Shown here: in pieces, positions 7,309 to 19,371 of the stretch
Numbering within the stretch: the first letter of the stretch is position 1
Layout: each line of letters opens with the position of its first letter
Notes under the pieces: model-generated
What the model was told of the DNA's origin: nothing
Databases searched by the model: none
The model's input: only the letters and a program-made list of their open reading frames with translations
DNA from: Fusobacterium gastrosuis
Lineage (GTDB): Bacteria; Fusobacteriota; Fusobacteriia; Fusobacteriales; Fusobacteriaceae
Length of the DNA stretch: 64,000 bases
Direction of reading: 5' to 3'
Assembly: GCF_900095285.1 (NCBI RefSeq)
Contig: NZ_LT607734.1
Location: 1,550,001 to 1,614,000 of the forward strand
Program-made: the position numbers and the translations under genes

Positions 7309-7338
7309 TTGTTATTTTAGTATAAAAAATGTTATAAT
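7309..7338 (+). promoter_or_regulatory. Promoter of the type I restriction operon
   Basis: TTGTTA (7309-7314), an 18-base spacer and TATAAT (7333-7338). The -10 is extended (TGTTATAAT). It lies 34 bases before the hsdR start. The operon therefore appears to have its own promoter after the malQ terminator. Confidence 0.6.
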
Positions 7339-7372: not shown

Positions 7373-10300
7373 ATGCAGTCAAATTTTGAATTTCTAAAAA
7401 AAGATTGGGAAATATTAGCAAACATTGGTACTGTTGCAGAATATAATCTTTATGTAGATCCTAATACTACTATTATTAAAACAAGACAACTTGCTGAAGC
7501 CTTAGCTAAGCTTATGATGAAGGTTGAAAATTTAAGTGATAAAAAAACTATGCAACAACATGAAAGAGTAAAAATTCTTAAAGATAATGATTTAATAACT
7601 GATGATATTGATAAAATTTTTACTGCTCTTAGGACAAAAGGGAATAAAGCGGCTCATGGATTTTATGGTGATGAAGAAACTGCAAATAATTTACTTTCTA
7701 TGACAGTAAAACTATGTGCTTGGTTTCAAGAAGTTTATGGCTCTGATCATAATTTCTCTTCAGATGATATTAATTATGAGCAACCACAAAAAATTAATTA
7801 TGTTGAAGAATATGAGAAATTAGTTGCTAAATCCAATGAAAAGGATACAGAAACTGAAATTGAAAAATTTACACCTGATTCAAATCAGATTTCTATTGAA
7901 GAGAGAAGAAAAATTATTAAAGCCAAAAAAGAAATTTTCTTAACTGAAGCAGAAACAAGATTAGTAATAGATGCTCAACTTAGAGAAGCTGGTTGGGAAG
8001 TTGATACTCAAATTTTAAATTATAAAAAGAATAAGACTTTACCGGAAAAAAATAAAAATTTAGCAATCGCTGAATGGCCTTGTAAAAAAGATAATGGACA
8101 AAAAGGCTATGCTGATTATGCCTTATTTTGTGGGAATACATTGGTTGCACTTATTGAAGCAAAACGAAAAAATGTTGATGTTTTTTATGCTTTAAAAAGA
8201 GATTGTATAATGTATTCAAAAGGCATTATAATCGATGAAAATTCGATGAACGAAAGTGTTAAATTAGCTGAAACTACTCCTTATATAAATAATATCAAAG
8301 TTCCTTTTTTATATTCATCTAATGCAAGAAAATATAATAAAGAGTATAAAGAAAAATCTGGGCTTTGGTTTTTAGATGCCAGAAAAAATAATGAAGCTAA
8401 AGTTATAGCAAATTTTCACTCACCTAGTGATTTAATTTCTTTATTGAAAAAAGATATAGAAGAAGCAAATGAAAAACTAAAAAGTGAAGCTTTTTCTTAT
8501 TTAGAAGAAAATTTGGGCTTAAGATATTATCAAATAGAAGCAATCAAGGCAGTTGAAGCTGCTTTGATTAATGATAAAGATAAAGTTCTTCTAACTATGG
8601 CAACAGGAACAGGAAAGACTATGACTGCTCTTGCCCTAGCTTATAGACTTTTAAAAACTAAAAGATATAATAGAATTTTATTTGTAGTAGATAGAGCAGA
8701 GCTGGGCAGGCAAACAAAAGATAGCTTTGAAAATAACAAAATAGAACAGCAGTACCCCATTTCAAAAATATATGAATTAGAGGGCTTAGATGTTAAAATC
8801 CCTAGCGAGAACACAAAAATTCATATTGCAACTGTACAAGGGCTTATGAAAAGAATTTTCTCTCCTAATAGTGAAGAGGAAAATCTAAGTATTGGAATGT
8901 ATGATTGTATAATTATAGATGAAGCTCATAGAGGATATATTTTAGATAAGGAAATAAACGAAGAAGAAAGTCTATTTATAAATGAAGAAGACTTTCAAAG
9001 TAAGTATAGAAAAGTTATAGATTATTTTGACGCAGATAAAATTGCACTAACTGCAACTCCTGCAACTCACACTATTGAAATTTTTGGTCAAGCTGTATAT
9101 CAATATTCATATAGGCAAGGGGTAATAGATGGTTATCTTATTGACCATGAAACACCGTATAAAATAGTGACTAAACTTTCTGAAGATGGTATACATTATG
9201 AACTTGGTGATGAAATAAAATTTTATGATCAAGAAAAAGATGAATTAAAAGTTCTTAAGATAGAAGATGATGAGCTTAACTTTGAGATAGATGCTTTTAA
9301 TAAGAAAGTTATTACAGAGAATTTTAATCGTGCTGTCTGCTCAGCTTTAGTAAACAGAATAAATCCATATGGTCCTGAGAAAACTCTTATTTTTGCTGCT
9401 ACTGATGAGCATGCTGATATGATAGTAAGAATACTTTTTGAAGAATATAAAAAGGCTGAGTACAATGTTAACTATGATATGATACAAAAAATTACGGGTT
9501 CTGTGAAAGATGTAGCATCTCTAATAAAAAAATATAAAAATGAATTGTATCCTACAATAGCAGTTACTGTTGACCTATTGACAACTGGAGTTGATGTAAG
9601 AGAAATTACAAGCCTTGTATTTTTAAGAAAAGTAAAAAGTAGAATACTTTTTGAGCAAATGAAGGGAAGAGCTACTAGAACTTGTGATAGAATAGGAAAA
9701 GAATTTTTTAGAATCTATGATGCAGTGGAAGTTTATAAAGATTTGAAGGATCACTCAGATATGAAACCTGTGGTAGCTAATGCTTCTCTTACGATGTCTG
9801 AGCTATTTAAAAATATAAATGCAAGTGATGAGCCTTTTATACATAAGTTATTGTTAGACAAAGTTTTAGCAAAATTACAAAGAAAGAAAAATAAAATTAG
9901 AAAATTAGGAAATGATAATTTTCAACTTTTATCAAGTCAATTTACTTCAAAGAATTTTTCAGATATAGATGAATACTTAAAGTATTTAAAGGATCTTCCT
10001 GAAGAAAAAATCTATAAAACACTTGAAGAAAACAAAGAATTTTTAGGATACTTAGACTTTATAAAAAATGAAGATAAGACAAAAATTATATCTGAGCATA
10101 ATGATGAGGTAAAAGAGATATTTCAAGATTTTTCTGGCAAAAAACCTGAGGATTATTTGGAAAACTTTAACCAGTTTGTAAGAGAAAATCAAGATAAAAT
10201 AAAAGCTCTTACACTTTTAAAAACTTCTCCAAAGAATTTTACTAAAAAAGACTTAAAAGAAATTAAATTTTATTTAGATAGTGAAGGCTTTTCTGAAATG

Positions 10301-10645
10301 AATCTTAACTCAGCCTATAAAAATATGAAAAATGAAGATATATATGTAAATATTCTAACTTTTGTTAAAAATATTTTATCTGGTTCTCCTATTGTAGATA
10401 AAAAAGAAAAAGTTGAAGATGTTATGAAGAGAATAAAAAAATTAAATAATTGGAATCCTGTTCAAAAGAAAATACTGGAAAGTATTGAAGAGATTTTACT
10501 ACAAGATGATTATTTAACAAAAGAAGATTTTAATAAAGGTATTTTAAAAGAAAAATATGGAAGTTTTGATAAAATAAATTTAAAGCTAAATGAAAAACTT
10601 GAAGAAATTTTAGCTATTATCAATGAGGAAATTTTATTAAACTAA
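7373..10645 (+). CDS. hsdR: Type I restriction enzyme, R subunit (HsdR)
   Basis: The motor and nuclease subunit of a type I restriction-modification complex. The 1090 residues show, in order: an N-terminal DUF4145-like helical domain (1-~120); a nuclease of PD-(D/E)XK type with ADYALF (~246) and IEAKR (~262); a superfamily 2 helicase with Walker A ATGTGKT (~409), Walker B/DEAH in IIIDEAHRGY (~515) and the ALTATPAT block; and helicase motifs TTGVDV and QMKGRATR near residues 740-770. The C-terminal ~250 residues are the charged helical region that contacts HsdM. GGGGTG lies before the ATG. It heads a run of same-strand genes reaching at least 14496. Confidence 0.95.
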   Translation: MQSNFEFLKKDWEILANIGTVAEYNLYVDPNTTIIKTRQLAEALAKLMMKVENLSDKKTMQQHERVKILKDNDLITDDIDKIFTALRTKGNKAAHGFYGDEETANNLLSMTVKLCAWFQEVYGSDHNFSSDDINYEQPQKINYVEEYEKLVAKSNEKDTETEIEKFTPDSNQISIEERRKIIKAKKEIFLTEAETRLVIDAQLREAGWEVDTQILNYKKNKTLPEKNKNLAIAEWPCKKDNGQKGYADYALFCGNTLVALIEAKRKNVDVFYALKRDCIMYSKGIIIDENSMNESVKLAETTPYINNIKVPFLYSSNARKYNKEYKEKSGLWFLDARKNNEAKVIANFHSPSDLISLLKKDIEEANEKLKSEAFSYLEENLGLRYYQIEAIKAVEAALINDKDKVLLTMATGTGKTMTALALAYRLLKTKRYNRILFVVDRAELGRQTKDSFENNKIEQQYPISKIYELEGLDVKIPSENTKIHIATVQGLMKRIFSPNSEEENLSIGMYDCIIIDEAHRGYILDKEINEEESLFINEEDFQSKYRKVIDYFDADKIALTATPATHTIEIFGQAVYQYSYRQGVIDGYLIDHETPYKIVTKLSEDGIHYELGDEIKFYDQEKDELKVLKIEDDELNFEIDAFNKKVITENFNRAVCSALVNRINPYGPEKTLIFAATDEHADMIVRILFEEYKKAEYNVNYDMIQKITGSVKDVASLIKKYKNELYPTIAVTVDLLTTGVDVREITSLVFLRKVKSRILFEQMKGRATRTCDRIGKEFFRIYDAVEVYKDLKDHSDMKPVVANASLTMSELFKNINASDEPFIHKLLLDKVLAKLQRKKNKIRKLGNDNFQLLSSQFTSKNFSDIDEYLKYLKDLPEEKIYKTLEENKEFLGYLDFIKNEDKTKIISEHNDEVKEIFQDFSGKKPEDYLENFNQFVRENQDKIKALTLLKTSPKNFTKKDLKEIKFYLDSEGFSEMNLNSAYKNMKNEDIYVNILTFVKNILSGSPIVDKKEKVEDVMKRIKKLNNWNPVQKKILESIEEILLQDDYLTKEDFNKGILKEKYGSFDKINLKLNEKLEEILAIINEEILLN

Positions 10646-10675
10646 TATAAAGAAATTAAATAAGAAGAGGTAAAG

Positions 10676-12079
10676 ATGAATAATAATGATATAGTCCAAA
10701 AGTTATGGAATTTATGTAATGTTCTAAGAGATGATGGAATAACTTATCAACAATATGTTACAGAGCTTACATACATTTTATTTTTAAAGATGTCAGCTGA
10801 AAAAGAAACTGAAGAAAATATTCCAGAGAAATATAGATGGAAGGAACTTATTAAGCTAGAAGGAATAGAGTTAAAAAATGTTTATCAACAAGCCCTTTTA
10901 GATTTTTCTAAAATAAGTGGAAATTTAGGCATTATTTATAAAGATGCTAGAACTAACATAAAAGAGCCCGCAAACTTAAATAAACTTTTTTCTGAAATTG
11001 ATAAAATTGATTGGTACTCTACGGACAAAGATGATTTAGGTGATCTATATGAAGGAATCTTGGAAAAAAATGCTGCTGAAAAAAAATCAGGAGCCGGGCA
11101 ATATTTTACTCCAAGAGTTTTAATAGATGTTATTGTTAGAGTGACAGAACCTAAGATAAATGAAAAGATATATGATCCAGCAGCAGGAACTTTAGGATTT
11201 TTAATTTCAGCTAATAGATACTTAAATGAAAAATATGAAAAAGAATATTATAAGGAAGAAAATTATAACTTCAAAAAAAATGAAGCTTTCTCAGCATTTG
11301 AATTGGTGGAAGAAACTCAAAGATTGGGTATGATGAATGCTTGGCTACATAATGTTGATGGAAAATTTTTAATTGGGGATACACTTTCTGAAAATGGAAA
11401 AAAATTAAATAACTTTGATTTGATTCTTTCTAATCCACCATTTGGTACAAAAAAAGGTGGAGAAAGTGCCACAAGAGATGATTTAATGTTTGATACTTCA
11501 AACAAACAACTAAACTTTTTACAAGTTATTTATAAATCATTAAAACAAACTGGAGAAGCAAGAGCAGGAGTAGTCCTTCCTGACAATGTACTTTTTGAAG
11601 ATGGAAAAGGAAGAGAAATAAGAAAAGACCTTTTAAATAAATGTAATGTGCATACTATTCTAAGATTGCCTACTGGAATATTTTATGCTCAAGGGGTAAA
11701 AACTAATGTACTTTTCTTTACAAAGGGGAAAACTGATCTTAACAATACAAAAGAAATTTGGTTCTACGATTTAAGAACTAATATGCCTAGCTTTGGAAAG
11801 ACTAATCCTTTAACAAAAAAGCATTTTGAAGAATTTGAAAAAACTTTTAACAATAATATTGAAAAAGAAAAAATTAAAAGATGGACCAAAATTTCTCTTG
11901 AAGAAATTGAAAAGAAAAATTTCTCTCTTGATTTGGGACTTATAAAAGATGAATCTTTAATAGATGTTAATAATTTACCTGAGCCAATTGAAACTGCATC
12001 TAGTTCAATTGAGAAACTAGAAGAAGCTGTTGATTTATTAAAAGAGATTATTACAGAGCTTTCTAATTGTGAAAAATAA
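10676..12079 (+). CDS. hsdM: Type I restriction-modification DNA methyltransferase (HsdM)
   Basis: This subunit methylates adenine in the site chosen by HsdS, protecting host DNA. An N-terminal helical HsdM_N domain (1-~130) leads into GAGQYFTPRVLIDVIV. The S-adenosylmethionine motif DPAAGTLGFL is at ~166 and the catalytic LSNPPFG at ~250, which is the NPPF type expected of an N6-adenine methylase. At 467 residues it is slightly short but complete. AGAGG precedes the ATG. It follows hsdR by 30 bases. Confidence 0.95.
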   Translation: MNNNDIVQKLWNLCNVLRDDGITYQQYVTELTYILFLKMSAEKETEENIPEKYRWKELIKLEGIELKNVYQQALLDFSKISGNLGIIYKDARTNIKEPANLNKLFSEIDKIDWYSTDKDDLGDLYEGILEKNAAEKKSGAGQYFTPRVLIDVIVRVTEPKINEKIYDPAAGTLGFLISANRYLNEKYEKEYYKEENYNFKKNEAFSAFELVEETQRLGMMNAWLHNVDGKFLIGDTLSENGKKLNNFDLILSNPPFGTKKGGESATRDDLMFDTSNKQLNFLQVIYKSLKQTGEARAGVVLPDNVLFEDGKGREIRKDLLNKCNVHTILRLPTGIFYAQGVKTNVLFFTKGKTDLNNTKEIWFYDLRTNMPSFGKTNPLTKKHFEEFEKTFNNNIEKEKIKRWTKISLEEIEKKNFSLDLGLIKDESLIDVNNLPEPIETASSSIEKLEEAVDLLKEIITELSNCEK

Positions 12080-12120
12080 TTTTTTATATTGAAAATATAG
12101 ATTTTATTTAGGAGGTATCT

Positions 12121-12981
12121 ATGTCTGAATTAGAAATTTATCATCAAAAAACTTTTGAAGAAATAAAACATTTTACAGAAGATGGTATTGAATTTTGGTA
12201 TGCTAGAGAATTACAAGAAATCTTAGAGTATAAAGAGTGGAGAAACTTTTTAAAAGTTATAAGTAAAGCAAAAAACTCTGTTGAGGCAACTCAAATAGCC
12301 ATAAATGAGCATTTTGTTGACGTCAACAAAACGTTAAAAATGCCAAATAATGCTGAGAAGATAATTGATGACATGATCCTTTCTAGATATGCTTGCTATT
12401 TAATAGTTCAAAATGGAGATCCTAGAAAAAAAATGATAGCCTTAGGGCAACAATATTTTGCCATTCAAACAAGAAAGCAAGAATTAATCGAAAAAGATTT
12501 TGAAGAACTTTCTGAAGATGAGAAAAGATTATTTTTGAGAGCAAATATAAAAGGTTTTAATAAGAAACTTTTTAAAGTTGCTCATGATTGTGGTGTAGAG
12601 AATTATGCACAATTTAACAATGCTGGTTATAGAGGACTTTATAATGGAGAAACTGCTCAAGATATCAAATTAAGAAAAGGCTTAAAGGAAAAAGATGAAA
12701 TATTAGATTATATGGGTTCAACAGAACTTGCAGCAAACTTTTTTAGAATAACTCAAACTGATGAAAGACTAAAAAAAGGTGATATCGTAGGGCAAGAGAG
12801 TGCCAATGCTACTCATTATAAGATAGGAAAAAAAGTAAGAGAAACTATGTTTGAAATTAGTAGTATTCTTCCAGAAGAGCTTCCTACACCAGAGAAATCT
12901 GTAAAAGAGCTTGAAAAACTTAAAAATAAAATAGAAAATAAAGTTTTAAAAATAAAAAATGAGGATAAAAATGAAAAGTGA
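12121..12981 (+). CDS. dinD: DinD-family protein inside the hsd operon
   Basis: The 286 residues match the DNA-damage-inducible protein D family: EFWYARELQEILEYKEWRNF (a BRO/KilA-like N-terminus), then GDPRKKMIALGQQYFAIQTR, and GSTELAANFFRITQTDERL near the C-terminus. DinD of E. coli is LexA-regulated and inhibits RecA strand exchange. In many genomes relatives sit between hsdM and hsdS, as here. I see no LexA box; TAGGAGG gives a strong ribosome site. The role inside restriction operons is not established. One inference is that it tempers recombination or repair at restricted DNA. Its last 11 bases overlap the likely hsdS start. Confidence 0.88.
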   Translation: MSELEIYHQKTFEEIKHFTEDGIEFWYARELQEILEYKEWRNFLKVISKAKNSVEATQIAINEHFVDVNKTLKMPNNAEKIIDDMILSRYACYLIVQNGDPRKKMIALGQQYFAIQTRKQELIEKDFEELSEDEKRLFLRANIKGFNKKLFKVAHDCGVENYAQFNNAGYRGLYNGETAQDIKLRKGLKEKDEILDYMGSTELAANFFRITQTDERLKKGDIVGQESANATHYKIGKKVRETMFEISSILPEELPTPEKSVKELEKLKNKIENKVLKIKNEDKNEK

Positions 12982-14496
12982 AAAAAAATAAAGATAGAAG
13001 ATTTTGTTCTTCCAATAGAAGAACAGCCTTATAAAATTCCTGATAATTGGGTTTGGACTAGATTGGGAAATGTTAGTACTGTTATTACCGGAAATACTCC
13101 CTCTAAAAAAGAAAATAAATTTTGGGAAAATGGAGATATTTTTTTCGTGAAACCTAATGATTTAAACGAAAAAATTTTATTTCATTCTGAAGAATATGTA
13201 GATAATAGAGCAAAAAAAAGTATTAGAATGATTCCAAAATATTCAACACTTTTATGTTGTATAGGAAGTATTGGAAAAAATTCTTTTTCTATGACTGAAT
13301 GTTGTACAAATCAGCAGATAAATTCTATCATATCAAAAGAAAAATTTTTAAATAATAAGTATACTTATTATTTTGTCAATTCTAGTTTTTTCCAAAATCA
13401 TATGTTAGAAAGTACTTCTGCAACAACTGTTGCAATTTTAAATAAAACAAATACAGAAAACTTATTTTTTCTTTTGCCACCACTAGAAGAGCAAAAAAGA
13501 ATAGTTGAAAAACTCGATTATTTTTCTGAAAAAATAAATAGATTAAAAGCTCTTATTGAGGAAGTAAAAGCTGATATTGAAAATAGAAAAATTTCTATTT
13601 TAGACAAAGCATTTAAAGGAGAGCTTACAGCAAAGTGGCGAGAAAAAAATTCTTGCTCTGATATTTTAGAGCTTTTAGAAAATATTAATAAAGAAAAAAT
13701 TGCTAAGTGGGAAGATGAATGTGCAGAAGCTGAGAAAAATGGAAATAAAAAACCAAAGAAGCCTACTTTAAAAAGTGTTGATGAAATGATAATTTCAGAA
13801 GATGAGTTCCCTTATGAGATTCCTGATACTTGGAGATGGGTTAGATTGGGAGATATTTTTATAAATATAAAATATGGTTATACTGATTCTGCAAAAGAAG
13901 TAGGTATTTATAAATTTTTAAGAATAACAGATATACAAAATAATAAAGTAGATTGGGAAAATGTCCCGTATTGTAATATATCTGAAGAAGAGTTTAAAAA
14001 CTATAAACTAAATAATAGAGATGTTTTAATTGCTCGTACAGGTGGAACAATTGGAAAAACATTTCTAATAAATAATTTAGAAAATACTATTCAATCAGTA
14101 TATGCTTCTTACTTAATAAAAATGACCCCTATCAAAAATATAAATGAATTTTATTTTAAAAAATATTTTGAAACTGATTTTTACTGGAAATTACTTGAAA
14201 AAAATGCAAAAGGAACTGGTCAACCTAATATAAATGTACCTGCCCTGTCAAATTTATATTTCCCTCTTCCACCTCTAGAAGAGCAAAAAGAAATTGTTAG
14301 AATTTTAGATGAAGTCTTAGAAAGGGAAAATAAAATTTCAGAAATTTTAAAAATGGAAGAACAAATTAATTTGCTTGAAAAGTCTATTTTAAATAAGGCT
14401 TTCAGAGGAGAGCTTGGGACGGGGAATATAAATGATGTGCTAGCTTTGGAGATGTTGAGAGAAAGTTTGTTAGAAAATAGGAGTGATTTAATATGA
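12971..14496 (+). CDS. hsdS: Type I restriction specificity subunit (HsdS), out of frame at an A8 tract
   Basis: HsdS chooses the target sequence for HsdM and HsdR. The frame holds two target-recognition domains, each opening with a similar block (IPDNWVWTRLGN and IPDTWRWVRLGD), and two conserved helical spacers (PPLEEQKRIVEKLD and PPLEEQKEIVRILD, each followed by a KAF[KR]GEL block). The best start is ATG 12971, ten bases after GAGG and overlapping the dinD end. It reads six codons and hits TAA, because the eight A at 12981-12988 leave it one base out. Nine A would give a continuous 508-residue protein. As written, only a TTG at 13063 could initiate, cutting the first recognition domain. The gene ends overlapping the next start. 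Confidence 0.88.
12981..12988 (+). repeat. A8 homopolymer after the hsdS start codon
   Basis: Eight A follow G at codon 4 of hsdS. Eight gives a stop at 12989; nine puts the start in frame with the recognition domains. It is therefore a candidate slippage switch, or the place of a base-calling error. Confidence 0.6.
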
Positions 14497-17455
14497 ATTT
14501 TTTTGAAAAACTTTTAGAAAAAAAAGTTAAAGAAGAAGATACTTTAGATTATTATACTCAATGGTGTTATGATAAAGAGCTGTATATAGATATTTTAAAT
14601 GGAGTTAGAGATTATTATCTTAATTATACAGACCATTCTCAAATACATTCAGAAACTATTTTAAACAATATTTTAAGATTATTTGGAAAAGAATCCTTTG
14701 AGTTTCTTTCTTCTTTTGACATTTGGTTACTTTTAGAAGCTTCATATTTACATGACTGTGGTATGTGTATTACTAGGGAAGAAGCTATGAATGTACTAAA
14801 GGAAGAAAGCTTTATTGAATATCTTATAAAAGTTTCTTTAAATAGTAACGACTACATGCATAAATATGTATCACCTTTTAATATTGATAAATTTCAAAAA
14901 AAAATTTTTTATAAAGAAACTGAATATGATATAAATAATGACTATGGAATAAGATTTTTAATATCCGCTTATAAAAGGAGAGAACATTCAAAAGATTTTG
15001 TAAAAAATATAAATTTTAATAATAAAATTCTTCCTAACAGAATATATCTGATTCTTTCATTAATTGCTGCACATCATACACAAAGTTTTTTTAATGTTCT
15101 AAATCTTCCTAAAAAAGAAAATGGAATTGGTGCAGACGTGGGGCATCCAATTTTCATTACTATGCTTTTAAGAATGGGGGATTTATTAGATATAGATAAT
15201 AATAGATTTTCTCCTATGCTCATAAATTCATTAAAAAGCATTATGCCTCTTGACTCTCTTAATCACATGGCTAAACACAAAGCTATCTCACACTTCTGGA
15301 TTGATAAAGAAAAAATTGAAATAACTGCAACAATCGATTCTGATGATGAAAGTTATAATATTGCAGAAATTACAGGAGAATGGTTTTCGTTAATTGAAAA
15401 TGAATACAAAAATCAATTATATCATTGGAAAAATATTGTTCCTGAAAATTTTAACTTCCAATTACCTACACTTGGTGACCTAAATATAAATCTCACTAAT
15501 TATGACTATATAGATTCTAAAAATAAGCCTAAATTTTCAGTTGATATAAATAATATTCTAAAACTACTAACTGGGACTTCTATATACGATAAAAAAGAAA
15601 AAGCATTAAGGGAACTTATACAAAATGCTGTTGATGCAACATATTTAAGAGTATTTGAAGAAAAAAGTGAAAACACTAATTTTGAAAATGAACTTTCCTA
15701 TTTAGATGTTAAAGAAATCTTTAAAGACTTTGAGATTACCATTAGAATTAACAAAATTGAAAAACCTGATTCTGAATATAACTACTGGAATATTTCAATT
15801 GAAGATAAAGGGATTGGAATTGATAAAGAACATTTAAAATATATTTTAGAAGCTGGGAGTTCTTATAAAGATTATAAGAAAAAAATAATAATAGAAAAAA
15901 TGCCCTATTGGTTAAGACCTTCTGGTAATTTTGGGATAGGTTTTCAAAGTATTTTTATGCTAACAGATAAAGTTAATATTAAAAGTAAATTTTTATATAA
16001 TCATAAATGTATTGATGTTAAGTTATTAAGTCCTTCCCTAAATTACAATAATGCAGGAAATATATTTTTTAAAAAAACTACTTTTGATTATAAGCAAAAA
16101 ATAGGAACAACCCTATCTTTTGTATATAAAACCTCTAAAGTAGCTAGTAGTTATAGCTCACAGGAAGGCGGTTTTACTTATCGTCTTGTAGAGAGATTTG
16201 ATCCTTTAATCTTTTCTGAATTTGATGCTGAAATTTTTAGAATTATGGATTATATTGAAGAAATAAATAAAACCTCATTAGTTAACATAAATCTAATAAA
16301 AGACAATGTCCCTATTACTATGGATAAATCTAAAATAGAAGATAAACATATTTTTTCACCTAAAGAGAAATTTCAGGTTTTTTTTGAATTTGATCCAAAT
16401 TTTTCTAATTCATGCCATTATAACCATAGATATAACTGTTTTTTATTTAAAAATCAATGGTTAGATGAGAAAAATACTTATAAATATTTAAAATATTATA
16501 TAAATATAAATGGATTCAATGCAAATGAAGTTTTAGAAATAAATAGAGATAAAATAAAAAAAGAATTTTTAATTAAAGAAAGTAATACAATTTTTAAGAG
16601 TATTTGCCTAAATTTAAAAAAATACATAGTAAAGTTCTCTACTTTAGATGATAGTACAAAATTAAATATAGCACTTTTTATTTCACATTATGAGGATATA
16701 GCATTGCCTATTTTAAAAAAAGAAAATCAATCTTCAAATGAATTAGGAGAGCATCTTGCAATGTTCAAAAACTTTTTATGTGAATACAAGTTTCCTAATA
16801 ACTTTGTTATAAAAGAAGTTTTAAAAATGGATGAAATTATAATTGAATATTCATATATTAAAAATAACCATTCATATAAATGGAAATTAAATAATAAGGA
16901 TATTGCTAATGAAATTTTAAAAATGATATTAGCCGAAATAATAAACCATAACAACTATATTATTGAATATTCTTTAAAAAAAGAAGATAATGGAAAAATA
17001 AACTTAAAAAATCTGAAGAATCTTATTTAAATGTAGAATATAAATTTGAAAATCTATTTTATAAAAGCTTTTTTCATGAAAGAGGAAGATTTTATATATA
17101 TGGAAATCCAAAATATAAAAATTTATTTTTAAAGAAAAACAAAGATTTGACTTCTAGTGAACAATGGATTTCCTATAAAACTATATATCCAAATATTTTA
17201 GATCTACTTCCTGAATTAAAATATATTATTAATAAAAATATTATTCTTTTCCCATTTTTTATTATTAATGAAAAAAAAGTTTTGTGGAATAACACTATGA
17301 GAAATAAATATATTGATTTTTGTTTTAAAAATAGATTAGATGAAAGTATCGATAAGCATTTATTCACTAAATGTGTAGATGAATTTATAACAGATTTAAA
17401 AATAGAACTAAATAATTTAAATGTGGAAATAAATGATAGTTATAATTTTATATAG
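14493..17455 (+). CDS. HD-domain plus Hsp90-like (GHKL) ATPase coupled to the restriction operon (one frameshift)
   Basis: The N-terminal ~270 residues look like an HD hydrolase domain: H48 and H52, the H87-D88 doublet in YLHDCG, AAHHTQS near 195 and MGDLLDIDN near 230. A GHKL/Hsp90-type ATP-binding fold follows, with N box ELIQNAVDA (~373), G1 DKGIGID (~438) and G2 GNFGIGF (~479). I do not recognise the remaining ~450 residues. The ATG overlaps the hsdS stop, so it is part of that operon. The first frame ends at 17030, but the next frame continues without a stop as far as 17455; adding one A to the A6 at 17006-17011 joins them into 987 residues. HD plus GHKL architectures are known from bacterial conflict systems, so a defence role is plausible but inferred. 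Confidence 0.72.
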
Positions 17456-17474
17456 AAACAAACTAGGAGGTAGT

Positions 17475-18107
17475 ATGAACTATACTTTACTGATACTTGA
17501 AAATTTTTTTTATTTATCCGAAAAAACTAAAATTTTTTTATATCGAGATAATAAAAATAATGATTGTAAAAAAATTGAAAAAATTATTTTTTTTATATTT
17601 ATTTTATTAATACTTTTTTTAAAAACAAAAAATATATATAATATTTTTCTTTTATTTACTTTTTTTGTTTTATATTGGGATATTTATAAAAATTTTAAAT
17701 TTATGTTAACTTCAATTAGAGGATTCTTAAAATACAGTTTCTATTTCACATTTACTCTATCATCTTTTTTAATTTTAATAGGTGACATAGTTAATTCCTA
17801 TTTTTTTATTTTATTTATACCAGTTTTTGTTATTATTTGGTGTTTTATAAGTTGCTGTACTGAAAAAAATATAGGAAAGATAGTGAATGAAAGTCTTTCT
17901 ATAATAAGCGGTATAATCCTCGGTGTATCTCATAATATTCTAGAAATAAGTGCACTTTTTAATAAAAAGATTACTAATGATTTAATTTTAATATTTTTAA
18001 AATCTTTCATTATTGGTAGTTCATCATTCTTTCTTATATTATTTGGAATGGGAACTTTACTTTGTATACTTAAAGAATATTGGCTAGAAAAACATTTTTT
18101 TATTTAA
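17475..18107 (+). CDS. Membrane protein at the end of the restriction/HD-GHKL operon
   Basis: I do not recognise this 210-residue protein. It is very rich in Phe, Ile, Leu and Lys and shows about five or six hydrophobic segments (for example IIFFIFILLILFL, FFVLYWDIY, YFTFTLSSFLILIG, FFILFIPVFVII, FFLILFGMGTLLC). AGGAGGTAGT just before ATG 17475 fixes the start, 19 bases after the HD-GHKL gene. A terminator follows directly. Its place behind a sensor-like ATPase suggests a membrane partner or effector, but nothing in the protein itself proves that. Confidence 0.65.
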   Translation: MNYTLLILENFFYLSEKTKIFLYRDNKNNDCKKIEKIIFFIFILLILFLKTKNIYNIFLLFTFFVLYWDIYKNFKFMLTSIRGFLKYSFYFTFTLSSFLILIGDIVNSYFFILFIPVFVIIWCFISCCTEKNIGKIVNESLSIISGIILGVSHNILEISALFNKKITNDLILIFLKSFIIGSSSFFLILFGMGTLLCILKEYWLEKHFFI

Positions 18108-18122
18108 GTCCAAAGATTTGTT

Positions 18123-18152
18123 AAAAGGAAGAGTAAACACTCTTCCTTTTTT
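18123..18152. terminator. Bidirectional intrinsic terminator
   Basis: A 12-bp stem with core GGAAGAGT (18127-18134) and ACTCTTCC (18139-18146), loop AAAC, T-rich on one side and A-rich on the other. It separates the membrane protein from the convergent ATPase gene. Confidence 0.85.
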
Positions 18153-19371
18153 ATATCTTTTCCAACAAAAAATCAACAATATTAATATGTTTTATCCCAT
18201 TTTTTGAAAAATCAAATTGATCATAAGAAATTATATACTTAGGAAAATTATCTCCTATTTTTTCTAATGGTGTAAATTCTCTTTTTAAAGTTTCTTCAGA
18301 CGCTAAAAGATAAGCTACCTGTATATAAATTTTTTCATTAGAATTTTTCTCGCAAATAAAATCAATTTCTAATTCATTGATTTTTCCAATTTTTACTTTA
18401 TATCCTCTTCTTAGTAATTCAAGGTGTATAATATTTTCAAATACTTGATTTATATCTCTCTCGTTACTTTCTAAAATTGCTTCACGGATTCCATGGTCAG
18501 CAATATAATATTTTTCATTAATAGTTAAAATTTTTTTTCCAAGTAAATCATATCTTTCTACTCTGTAAATAAGCATAGCCTCTTCGCAGAATTTTATATA
18601 ATTTAAAATCGTATCTATTGCAACTTTTCTATTCTCGCTTTTAAAAAATTTTACTAAAGAGTTTGCTGAAAATGTATTTCCAATGTTTGCTAATATATAT
18701 TTAATAATTCTTTCTAGTAAATCTATATCTCTAATTTTATTCCTTTGAGTTATATCTTTTAGAATTATTGATGAATAAATATCTGCTAAATACTGCATAC
18801 TAGCAGGATAATTAAATTTTAAATTATATAAAAATGGCATTCCTCCAAACTTTATATATTGTTTAAAAGCTTCATCTTTTGTAATTTTATTATTTTCTTG
18901 CTGTTCTTCAAGTGCAACATAAAACTCTGAAAATGAAAAAGGAAATATTTTAAATTCGACATACCTTCCAGCTAGATATGTTGCAAGCTCTCCTGATAAC
19001 AATTTTGCATTGGAACCTGTTATGAAAATATCAAAATTATATTCCTCTTGAATTCTTAAAGAATTTATAACTTTCTCCCAATTTTCAACTTCTTGGATTT
19101 CATCTAAAAAAAGATAATTTTTTTCTCCTTTTTTAGCTTCACTTAATATAAAGTTGTTTAAACTTTCCGCTGTACATAATCTTTTATTTTTTATATCCTC
19201 AAAATTTAAACTAATAATTTGTTCTGAATTAATTCCCATTTTTTTTATTTCTTCAACCAATAATTTCAATAAAATAGATTTACCACTTCTTCGTATTCCA
19301 GTTAGAACTTTTATTAAATCTGTATTTATAAAAGGTTTTATTTGTTCAATATATGTTTTTCTTTCTATCAC
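18151..19371 (-). CDS. AAA-family ATPase with DUF4143 C-terminal domain
   Basis: A 406-residue protein of the widespread ATPase group with an N-terminal AAA domain and a C-terminal DUF4143 nuclease-like domain. Walker A is GIRRSGKS at ~25, Walker B is LFLDEIQEVENW at ~88, and FITGSNAKLLSGELATYLAGR is the sensor-1 and arginine region. The C-terminus carries ELEIDFIC and KIYIQVAY, which fit the Asp and Gln of a PD-(D/E)XK-like fold. Genes of this family are often patchy and horizontally moved, and their function is unclear. Its promoter region is dense with palindromic sites, which suggests autoregulation or control by a dedicated repressor. It stands alone, convergent with the defence operon. 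Confidence 0.85.
   Translation of the reverse strand: MIERKTYIEQIKPFINTDLIKVLTGIRRSGKSILLKLLVEEIKKMGINSEQIISLNFEDIKNKRLCTAESLNNFILSEAKKGEKNYLFLDEIQEVENWEKVINSLRIQEEYNFDIFITGSNAKLLSGELATYLAGRYVEFKIFPFSFSEFYVALEEQQENNKITKDEAFKQYIKFGGMPFLYNLKFNYPASMQYLADIYSSIILKDITQRNKIRDIDLLERIIKYILANIGNTFSANSLVKFFKSENRKVAIDTILNYIKFCEEAMLIYRVERYDLLGKKILTINEKYYIADHGIREAILESNERDINQVFENIIHLELLRRGYKVKIGKINELEIDFICEKNSNEKIYIQVAYLLASEETLKREFTPLEKIGDNFPKYIISYDQFDFSKNGIKHINIVDFLLEKI

Follow-up and report, generated by a model that had tools for sequence, protein, structure and literature searches.

A candidate HD-Hsp90 defence gene behind hsdS in a type I restriction-modification operon of Fusobacterium gastrosuis

What are the last two genes of a type I restriction-modification (RM) operon for, and do they serve the restriction system that precedes them? 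The question is raised by a locus of Fusobacterium gastrosuis (contig NZ_LT607734.1, positions 1,550,001 to 1,614,000 of the forward strand; this whole stretch of 64,000 nt is called the window, and coordinates count from its first letter), in which hsdR, hsdM, dinD and hsdS are followed by a gene for a protein with an HD domain and a GHKL-type ATPase, here called HDG, and by an open reading frame (ORF) for a multi-pass membrane protein. The explanation that we favour, at a probability of about 0.6, is that the operon has a slot for exchangeable cargo behind hsdS and that the cargo now in this slot includes an anti-phage protein, HDG.

A first-pass annotation of the window had placed the six genes on one strand, and family profiles confirmed this arrangement, in which neighbouring genes overlap or lie close together (gaps of 30 and 41 nt). 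The reading frames that it listed for hsdR, hsdM and dinD were sound, and the start of hsdS, the end of HDG and the start of the membrane gene were corrected. The features of the locus are as follows.

7309-7338, +: sigma-70-like promoter, TTGTTA-18-TATAAT with TG before the -10 element, well placed
7373-10645, +: hsdR, type I restriction subunit, 1090 aa (NF008521, 1209 bits; PADLOC REase_I; EcoEI_R_C, ResIII)
10676-12079, +: hsdM, type I N6-adenine methyltransferase, 467 aa (PADLOC MTase_I, E 4e-195; N6_Mtase, E 7e-77)
12121-12981, +: dinD, Bro-N/DinD protein, 286 aa, in the gap between hsdM and hsdS (NF008573, E 4e-109)
12971-14496, +: hsdS, specificity subunit, from ATG 12971, open frame 12982-14496 (Methylase_S, E 3e-42)
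12981-12988, +: A8 tract, at which the hsdS reading frame changes
14493-17455, +: HDG (HD-CE and Hsp90-type ATPase), interrupted by a frameshift; 845 aa in frame 0 (14493-17030), remainder at the C-terminus in the -1 frame (17006-17455)
17006-17011, +: A6 tract, at which the HDG frame changes
17475-18107, +: multi-pass membrane protein, 210 aa, about 5 hydrophobic segments, AGGAGG upstream of the start, no recognised relatives
18123-18150, +: intrinsic terminator, convincing, 12-bp stem and T tail

A proposed slot after hsdS

By their family matches, hsdR, hsdM and hsdS make up a complete predicted type I gene set, comprising the HsdR motor/endonuclease, HsdM and HsdS, with the start of hsdS frame-broken. 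The family of the window's hsdR (E <= 1e-100) occurs in 11 of the 98 genomes of the phylum, its own included, and the order R-M-S is kept in all ten other loci. Between hsdM and hsdS these loci hold a DUF1016/YhcG nuclease gene (2 of 10) or nothing (8 of 10), and in six of them a recognised restriction or toxin-antitoxin gene follows hsdS. The genes after hsdS are these.

L153 and L160: GmrSD
L154, and L152 as the third gene: NucS_C-DUF5655
L155: McrB-like AAA_5 and McrC
L157: DUF6290-ParE pair
L161: unrecognised ORFs, then a DUF2326 protein
L158: a gene of 311 aa after 367 nt
L159: a methyltransferase after 166 nt
L156: nothing within 848 nt

The clearest view of this variation comes from two near-identical loci, in genomes G025 and G027, which are 98.7% identical over 5.8 kb covering hsdR, hsdM and the start of hsdS. 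Their hsdS recognition regions differ (the HsdS proteins are 54% identical), the 3′ end of hsdS is shared over 232 nt at 97.8%, up to 20 nt past the stop, and what follows is different cargo: GmrSD with an ADP-ribosylglycohydrolase (L153:9676-10611, -) in G025 versus NucS_C-DUF5655 in G027. Beyond the cargo the two match again, at 91.8% over 9.6 kb. This is a cargo exchange at the very place that holds HDG and the membrane gene in the window.

HDG has also come to lie after hsdS independently in a Campylobacteraceae contig (L009), in a close hsdR-hsdM-hsdS-HDG array that ends in an ADP-ribosyltransferase-like (ART) gene and has, as in the window, a 4-nt overlap between hsdS and HDG. Because HDG is rarely found with hsd genes, because the hsdR family varies in what follows hsdS, and because the G025 and G027 loci differ precisely there, we think it fairly probable that the locus is a modular unit: a type I RM operon with a 3′ cargo slot that is occupied in the window by a candidate defence gene of the HD-Hsp90 kind and a facultative membrane partner. 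Base composition agrees with separate acquisition, since HDG and its partner are lower in GC than the hsd genes both in the window (hsdR, hsdM and hsdS 26.5-28.1% and dinD 28.6%, against 23.5 and 18.0% for the two frames of HDG and 18.2% for the membrane gene) and in L009 (hsdR, hsdM and hsdS 34.9, 37.4 and 29.2%, HDG 24.5%, ART 23.4%).

The gene in the gap between hsdM and hsdS is a DinD family member (NF008573, 364.6 bits versus a cut-off of 242, over residues 4-280), whose product also aligns to positions 4-277 of the 717-position PADLOC model of type I specificity subunits. DinD is known for its induction by damage through LexA and for inhibition of RecA; a passage in PMC10602874 carries the RecA inhibition as a cited statement. 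Matches to dinD were found in 4 of the 61 genomes of the window's family: between hsdM and hsdS in the window's genome (G000) and G022, apart from hsd genes in G037, and as a fragment with stops in G051. The hsdR of the window does not match that of G022, a 1032-aa protein named by its position and look, beside hsdM and hsdS labelled from phmmer matches. None of the seven plasmid dinD records opened, of 28, lists an hsd gene within its 9.7-kb stretch, for which the gene table is incomplete; in one a DNA methyltransferase is listed 3.4 kb upstream, beyond a gap without annotation (L167), and in another a DEAD/DEAH helicase on the other strand (L166). Given these plasmid records and the placement in the family genomes, dinD was rejected as a fixed part of the RM system, and it is a similarly optional occupant of its own gap.

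The proposal that the operon runs from one promoter to one terminator fared unevenly. The terminator stands, and terminator-like sites number 9 in 15 kb versus 3.4 +/- 2.0 in shuffles. The promoter is well placed, but promoter-like sites are as common as chance predicts (100 found versus 98.9 +/- 9.9 in shuffles). On this layout the six genes would be co-transcribed. The terminator region is held in common with a convergent gene at 18151-19371 (-), which encodes an AAA_14/DUF4143 ATPase and is a candidate for PADLOC PDC-S01 (E 2e-159).

An HD domain joined to an Hsp90-type ATPase

Profile searches resolved HDG into an HD-CE domain and an Hsp90-like ATPase, and returned no match for the membrane protein. 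HD-CE (PF24391) matches HDG at E 2e-33 over profile positions 3-261 of 263, which is almost the whole profile; HD-CE is a Pfam name for which we found no describing paper in the open-licence literature. Further matches were to HATPase_c_3, weakly to HtpG and, below cut-off, to sacsin. The HtpG equivalog model NF003555 gave 60.4 bits versus a cut-off of 371, and HDG is therefore best called Hsp90-like and not HtpG. In PADLOC (library of 2023) HDG was assigned to no known defence system, with a weak TmtA row and a best E of 0.064.

An AlphaFold2 model of the complete HDG of L009, built from an alignment of 29 homologues, reached a mean pLDDT of 82, and the best 50 Foldseek matches to this model in the PDB all belong to the Hsp90 family. 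In the VIA comparison, residues 352-725 align with TRAP1 (Z 19.2, root-mean-square deviation 4.4, 291 residues, 20% identity), against Z 15.8 for the best GyrB row. We restrict the fold assignment to this part and extend it neither to the C-terminal nor to the HD part, because VIA barely probed the model outside residues 350-746. The sequence profile of the HDG family agrees with Hsp90 (3ied, E 2e-19), and from this profile and the model of the relative, HDG is predicted to contain the N-terminal ATPase and middle domains of Hsp90.

Residues of both the ATPase and the HD domain are strongly conserved. On the ATPase side, all 29 aligned rows have E374, N378, D438, G442, G481 and G483, and 27 have R685, which lies within an 'INRDKI' motif that we take to recall the catalytic arginine loop of Hsp90 middle domains. 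On the HD side, H48, H52, H87-D88, H165, H195 and D230 occur in all 29 rows, and H52, H87-D88 and D230 would form the metal site of an H...HD...D arrangement. When a profile of 18 HD domains was compared with PDB sequences, the 18 sequences at E <= 10 were all phosphodiesterases (best E 1e-4), and H48, H52 and the HD pair align to their histidines and HD, which in phosphodiesterases act as the general acid and metal ligands. Phosphodiesterase is our best guess at the activity of the putative HD enzyme.

Distribution, neighbours and possible partners of HDG

The first-pass annotation had named rare adjacency of HDG relatives to hsd genes, or lack of the membrane protein, as what would count against its idea. 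The neighbourhoods went largely that way: leaving the window aside, two of 59 homologue loci showed hsd genes and none a homologue of the membrane protein. The two are L009 and L007, where the hsd genes lie on the opposite strand about 2.4 kb from HDG. The phmmer queries were the membrane protein and 11 hsd proteins, one of them the assumed hsdR of G022, and the loci searched were L002 and L004-L061, some of which are partial matches (L003 is the same gene as L002, and L061 looks like a copy of L050); as the reference set is small and some loci are cut by contig ends, 2 of 59 is a lower bound. At the sister locus in G017, no relatives of the window's hsd proteins were detected within the 19 kb read. 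PF02384 is present in 38 of 40 homologue genomes, the match in G061 being the hsdM of L009.

The family is widespread and sparse. The genome scan returned 49 loci from many phyla, and viral contigs gave four more; 34 plasmid records were mostly matches to the HtpG-type ATPase alone, and one of six phage records matched beyond the ATPase. HDG occurs in 2 of the 61 genomes of the window's family, the window's own included, and in 1 of 397 genomes of the L009 phylum, which is L009's own; a DNA query with the L050 copy found no match in E. coli genomes. In L050, an intact single-gene copy from Buttiauxella, and in L060, HDG is flanked by the P2-like replication gene gpA (phrog_91) on one side and by portal/terminase genes on the other, in a check that covered these two loci and a few neighbours of L027, L058 and L059. 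Passages in PMC9122126 and PMC9519451 describe this site of P2-like prophages as a defence hotspot. The two homologues lie inside this gpA-gpQ hotspot, whereas the window copy lies in an hsd operon on the main contig. A PADLOC scan of neighbours in eight chosen loci showed a PtuA-like (L016), a PrrC/AAA_13-like (L026) and a methyltransferase gene (L015) beside HDG in three. This scattered distribution and the hotspot sites fit a mobile anti-phage gene.

The membrane protein is harder to place. It most likely starts at 17475 and not at 17433, as judged from its upstream motif. Searched as the longer ORF (17433-18104) it had no match in Pfam (E 0.1), PADLOC or NCBIfam, and no match was found in PHROGs, PDB sequences, plasmids or viral contigs; in the 61 family genomes it returned, besides itself, two poor matches with internal stops. 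Its single-sequence AlphaFold2 model reached a pLDDT of 57.6. The idea that it is a partner or effector of HDG is plausible by analogy, because HDG relatives on separate branches have SLATT two-transmembrane (2TM) or ART-like neighbours.

These neighbours are of distinct kinds. In G017 the sister HDG (58% identity over residues 1-426) overlaps a DUF4231/SLATT 2TM gene that precedes it, and a SLATT gene also lies upstream of HDG in L030 and L034. The SLATT effectors resemble the window's membrane protein in adjoining HDG, and differ from it in that the latter has about five predicted segments and no DUF4231 match; a SLATT query found no match in viral contigs. In L009 and L010 an ART-like gene lies downstream and overlaps the 3′ end of HDG (L009:8804-9364; L010:3251-3823); both genes were seen in two ART families below the cut-offs (21.7 versus 23.4 bits in Pfam for L009), and PADLOC has no model for them. 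L078 was tried as the upstream neighbour of L010 and rejected as unrelated.

A tree of 50 rows (L039, L046, L051, L052, L054-L057 and the apparent duplicate L061 being left out) paired the window with G017 at 100/100 support. Labelled for SLATT, ART and window partners only, with other HDG neighbours unlabelled, it required four changes, gains or losses, a count as low as which arose in 7 of 500 shuffles. Since the partners are of three unrelated kinds, we read them as toxin-like or membrane partners added several times to a mostly partnerless core.

Other genes beside HDG deserve mention. In the Clostridia loci L032, L036 and L044 a conserved gene of 650-660 aa precedes HDG, together with a gene of 150-210 aa in L036 and L044, and in L035 an 820-aa HATPase_c protein is encoded upstream; these upstream genes are possible further partner types. 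A protein kinase gene (L040:8256-9791) overlaps the start of a distant HDG homologue by 4 nt, and a SLATT-like gene (L054:11086-11649) follows an HD-CE-like match by about 0.4 kb in a Peptostreptococcaceae contig.

Frame breaks, a proposed mechanism and rival explanations

Two genes of the operon are interrupted at A tracts. The hsdS ORF first listed begins at a TTG within the first recognition domain; a better start is ATG 12971, which has a GAGG motif and overlaps the end of dinD, and from which the frame shifts within the A8 tract. The upstream frame reads EEQPYKIPDNWVW, and its stretch IEEQPYKIPDNWVWTRLGN resembles the PY.(I/V/L)P..W.W stretch found behind the ordinary start in the HsdS of 9 of 10 relatives (FYTLPNSWKW in L161). 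Likewise, the 845-aa HDG ORF is a truncation, and the remaining 149 residues are encoded in the -1 frame up to 17455. This -1 frame aligns weakly (about 10 bits) to the extreme C-termini of the homologues in L009 (890-952 of 960) and L004 (901-961 of 969), and by eye also resembles that of the G017 relative. It is open for 149 codons, which none of 2000 mononucleotide shuffles reproduced. The median homologue length is 1000 aa (n=45, filtered to 850-1320 aa), and L013 is one example of a complete homologue. HDG homologues in G017, L021 and L030 are split too, and in L160 (G026) hsdR and hsdS are in pieces beside an intact GmrSD cargo.

The A8 tract itself was rejected as special, there being 17 runs of at least 8 A in the 64 kb. 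In a control on the same genome (204 ORFs of the congener G016 compared with about 864 kb), 1 of 107 orthologue-like genes was broken over 41,924 aligned aa, a rate that is biased to conserved genes and derives from one event; the broken gene lies at L089:11873-13836 (-). By our arithmetic about 0.04 breaks would be expected in hsdS and HDG together, and because of this control the two breaks in one operon exceed the background. They could stem from phase variation, from expression that depends on slippage, from decay or from an error of assembly. Since A tracts break the frame of both hsdS and HDG, the sequenced allele may be switched off, may give a little product by slippage, or may be in decay.

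On the explanation that we favour, the operon is of the NF008521 type with the order R-M-dinD-S, and its post-hsdS slot for interchangeable defence cargo would here hold a cassette of HDG and the membrane gene. Restriction by HsdRMS would be the first layer of defence and HDG a second, largely independent one. An infection cue, perhaps a phage protein or some change within the cell, would cause the Hsp90-like clamp of HDG to close with ATP, and the closed clamp would free or order the active site of the putative HD metallo-phosphohydrolase, in which the first motifs align with those of class I cyclic-nucleotide phosphodiesterases, so that a nucleotide or nucleic acid would be cut and phage growth would stop. 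The membrane protein would be a facultative partner or effector that damages the membrane or serves as an anchor, a role that SLATT 2TM or ART-like genes may fill in relatives. Defence activity, the HD substrate, switching by ATP and partner function are what we infer from these comparisons. That HDG is a defence gene seems to us likely; that the HD domain is its main effector is about an even bet, and the chances that the membrane protein is a functional partner, by analogy with the relatives, are likewise balanced. The first-pass annotation had proposed a second line of defence that senses failed restriction: a separate, defence-like tail module remains plausible, but the rarity of hsd genes in the HDG loci makes sensing of failed restriction by HDG improbable.

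Several observations weigh against this explanation. In L156, L158 and L159 no recognised defence gene lies near hsdS, the first cargo ORF of L161 is unrecognised, and the case for exchange comes from a single pair of near-identical loci. The cassette is not alone in its low GC, since the convergent gene next to it also stands at 23.5%. Position 44 of HDG is N in the window and H in 27 of 29 rows. The phosphodiesterase match is weak and spans 74 of the 329 positions of the profile, and a Pfam search gave no phosphodiesterase family; that activity stays a guess because the match is short and lies outside any such Pfam family. The loci with defence neighbours are a chosen few, read without a background rate. 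The role of the membrane protein is deduced from its position, because no search returned a homologue, and 37 of 52 HDG loci lack any ORF of 100 aa or longer on the strand of HDG at a distance of up to 60 nt (L002, L008 and L061 left out; six of the 52 end within 400 nt of the gene, and L034, whose SLATT gene is 62 nt away, is counted as partnerless), so that HDG can probably act alone and needs no partner in general. Finally, with HDG and hsdS frame-broken, the allele may be inactive.

Other explanations draw on the same evidence. HDG and the membrane protein could be a dedicated guardian which, like PrrC beside EcoprrI, monitors HsdRMS, DinD included, and arrests growth when a phage inhibits restriction. 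The 4-nt overlap of hsdS and HDG recurs in L009, in a different part of the tree, and accessory toxins in type I loci have precedent in passages of PMC12707154 and PMC3710099; however, hsd genes share an array with HDG in only 1 of 59 loci, no relative of the window's hsd proteins was detected at the G017 sister locus within the 19 kb read, and the same hsdR family carries several unrelated cargos, which leaves this reading doubtful. That HDG is instead a house chaperone of the HtpG kind for RM subunits would suit its Hsp90 N-terminal and middle domain fold, but the HD active site is invariant, homologues are found on plasmids and in P2-like prophages and mostly at a distance from hsd genes, and the distribution (2 of 61 and 1 of 397 genomes) has the pattern of mobile cargo; we regard this reading as very improbable.

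The frame breaks admit two further readings. Assembly errors at homopolymers could have split two genes that are intact in the living strain, as the position of both breaks within A tracts would suggest; against this stands the control rate, itself biased and drawn from one event, and we regard it as possible but not probable. Alternatively, the tail could be decaying, with fixed frameshifts, HDG and HsdS dead and the membrane ORF a remnant. Two breaks in one operon, the split HDG genes elsewhere and the pieces of hsdR and hsdS in L160 speak for decay, whereas the remaining frames are long and open with HD and ATPase residues intact, the -1 frame resembles the C-termini of relatives, at a length of opening that shuffles did not reach, and slippage at poly-A could still yield a product; we regard decay as less likely than assembly error.

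Parts of the favoured explanation are already in print: suicide modules such as PrrC and RloC have been described as accessories of type I loci, and GHKL ATPases as components of defence. Passages in PMC12707154 and PMC3710099 describe accessory genes embedded in type I RM loci, with EcoprrI-PrrC as one case and RloC, RhuM and DOC in RM neighbourhoods. The window resembles the EcoprrI-PrrC type in carrying toxin-like accessory genes inside an RM operon, as multi-layer defence, but its cargo is an HD-Hsp90 protein with a membrane protein, and no HEPN or anticodon nuclease was found; in Pfam and PADLOC, HDG lacks the ABC ATPase and HEPN anticodon nuclease that define PrrC. Passages in PMC3710099 and PMC12137116 likewise describe paraMORC-HEPN fusions in RM neighbourhoods and VcSduA, a Shedu protein with an N-terminal GHKL domain. 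HDG resembles these in pairing a GHKL ATPase with a putative effector domain, but in the searches made here it comes closest to Hsp90, with N-terminal and middle domains, and its effector would be an N-terminal HD-CE domain and not HEPN or PD-(D/E)XK. On HD-CE, or HD with Hsp90, in defence we found nothing on target in the open-licence literature. With no paper there on an HD-Hsp90 defence protein and no model in PADLOC 2023, HDG is a candidate new protein class.

The established role of Hsp90 is that of a chaperone. If the favoured explanation is true, control of an HD phosphohydrolase by Hsp90 N-terminal and middle domains would be a new use of the fold. More tentatively, HDG may found an undescribed anti-phage class, in which an Hsp90-type clamp switches a fused phosphodiesterase-like HD effector, alone or with swappable membrane or ADP-ribosylating partners, and the type I RM operons of this lineage may act as docking sites at which such cargo is exchanged together with hsdS recognition domains. 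The family can be tested as a single gene taken from a P2-like prophage. To judge from the G025 and G027 pair, whole defence modules can be swapped at the 3′ end of a type I RM operon, and this marks a concrete place to seek new defence genes.

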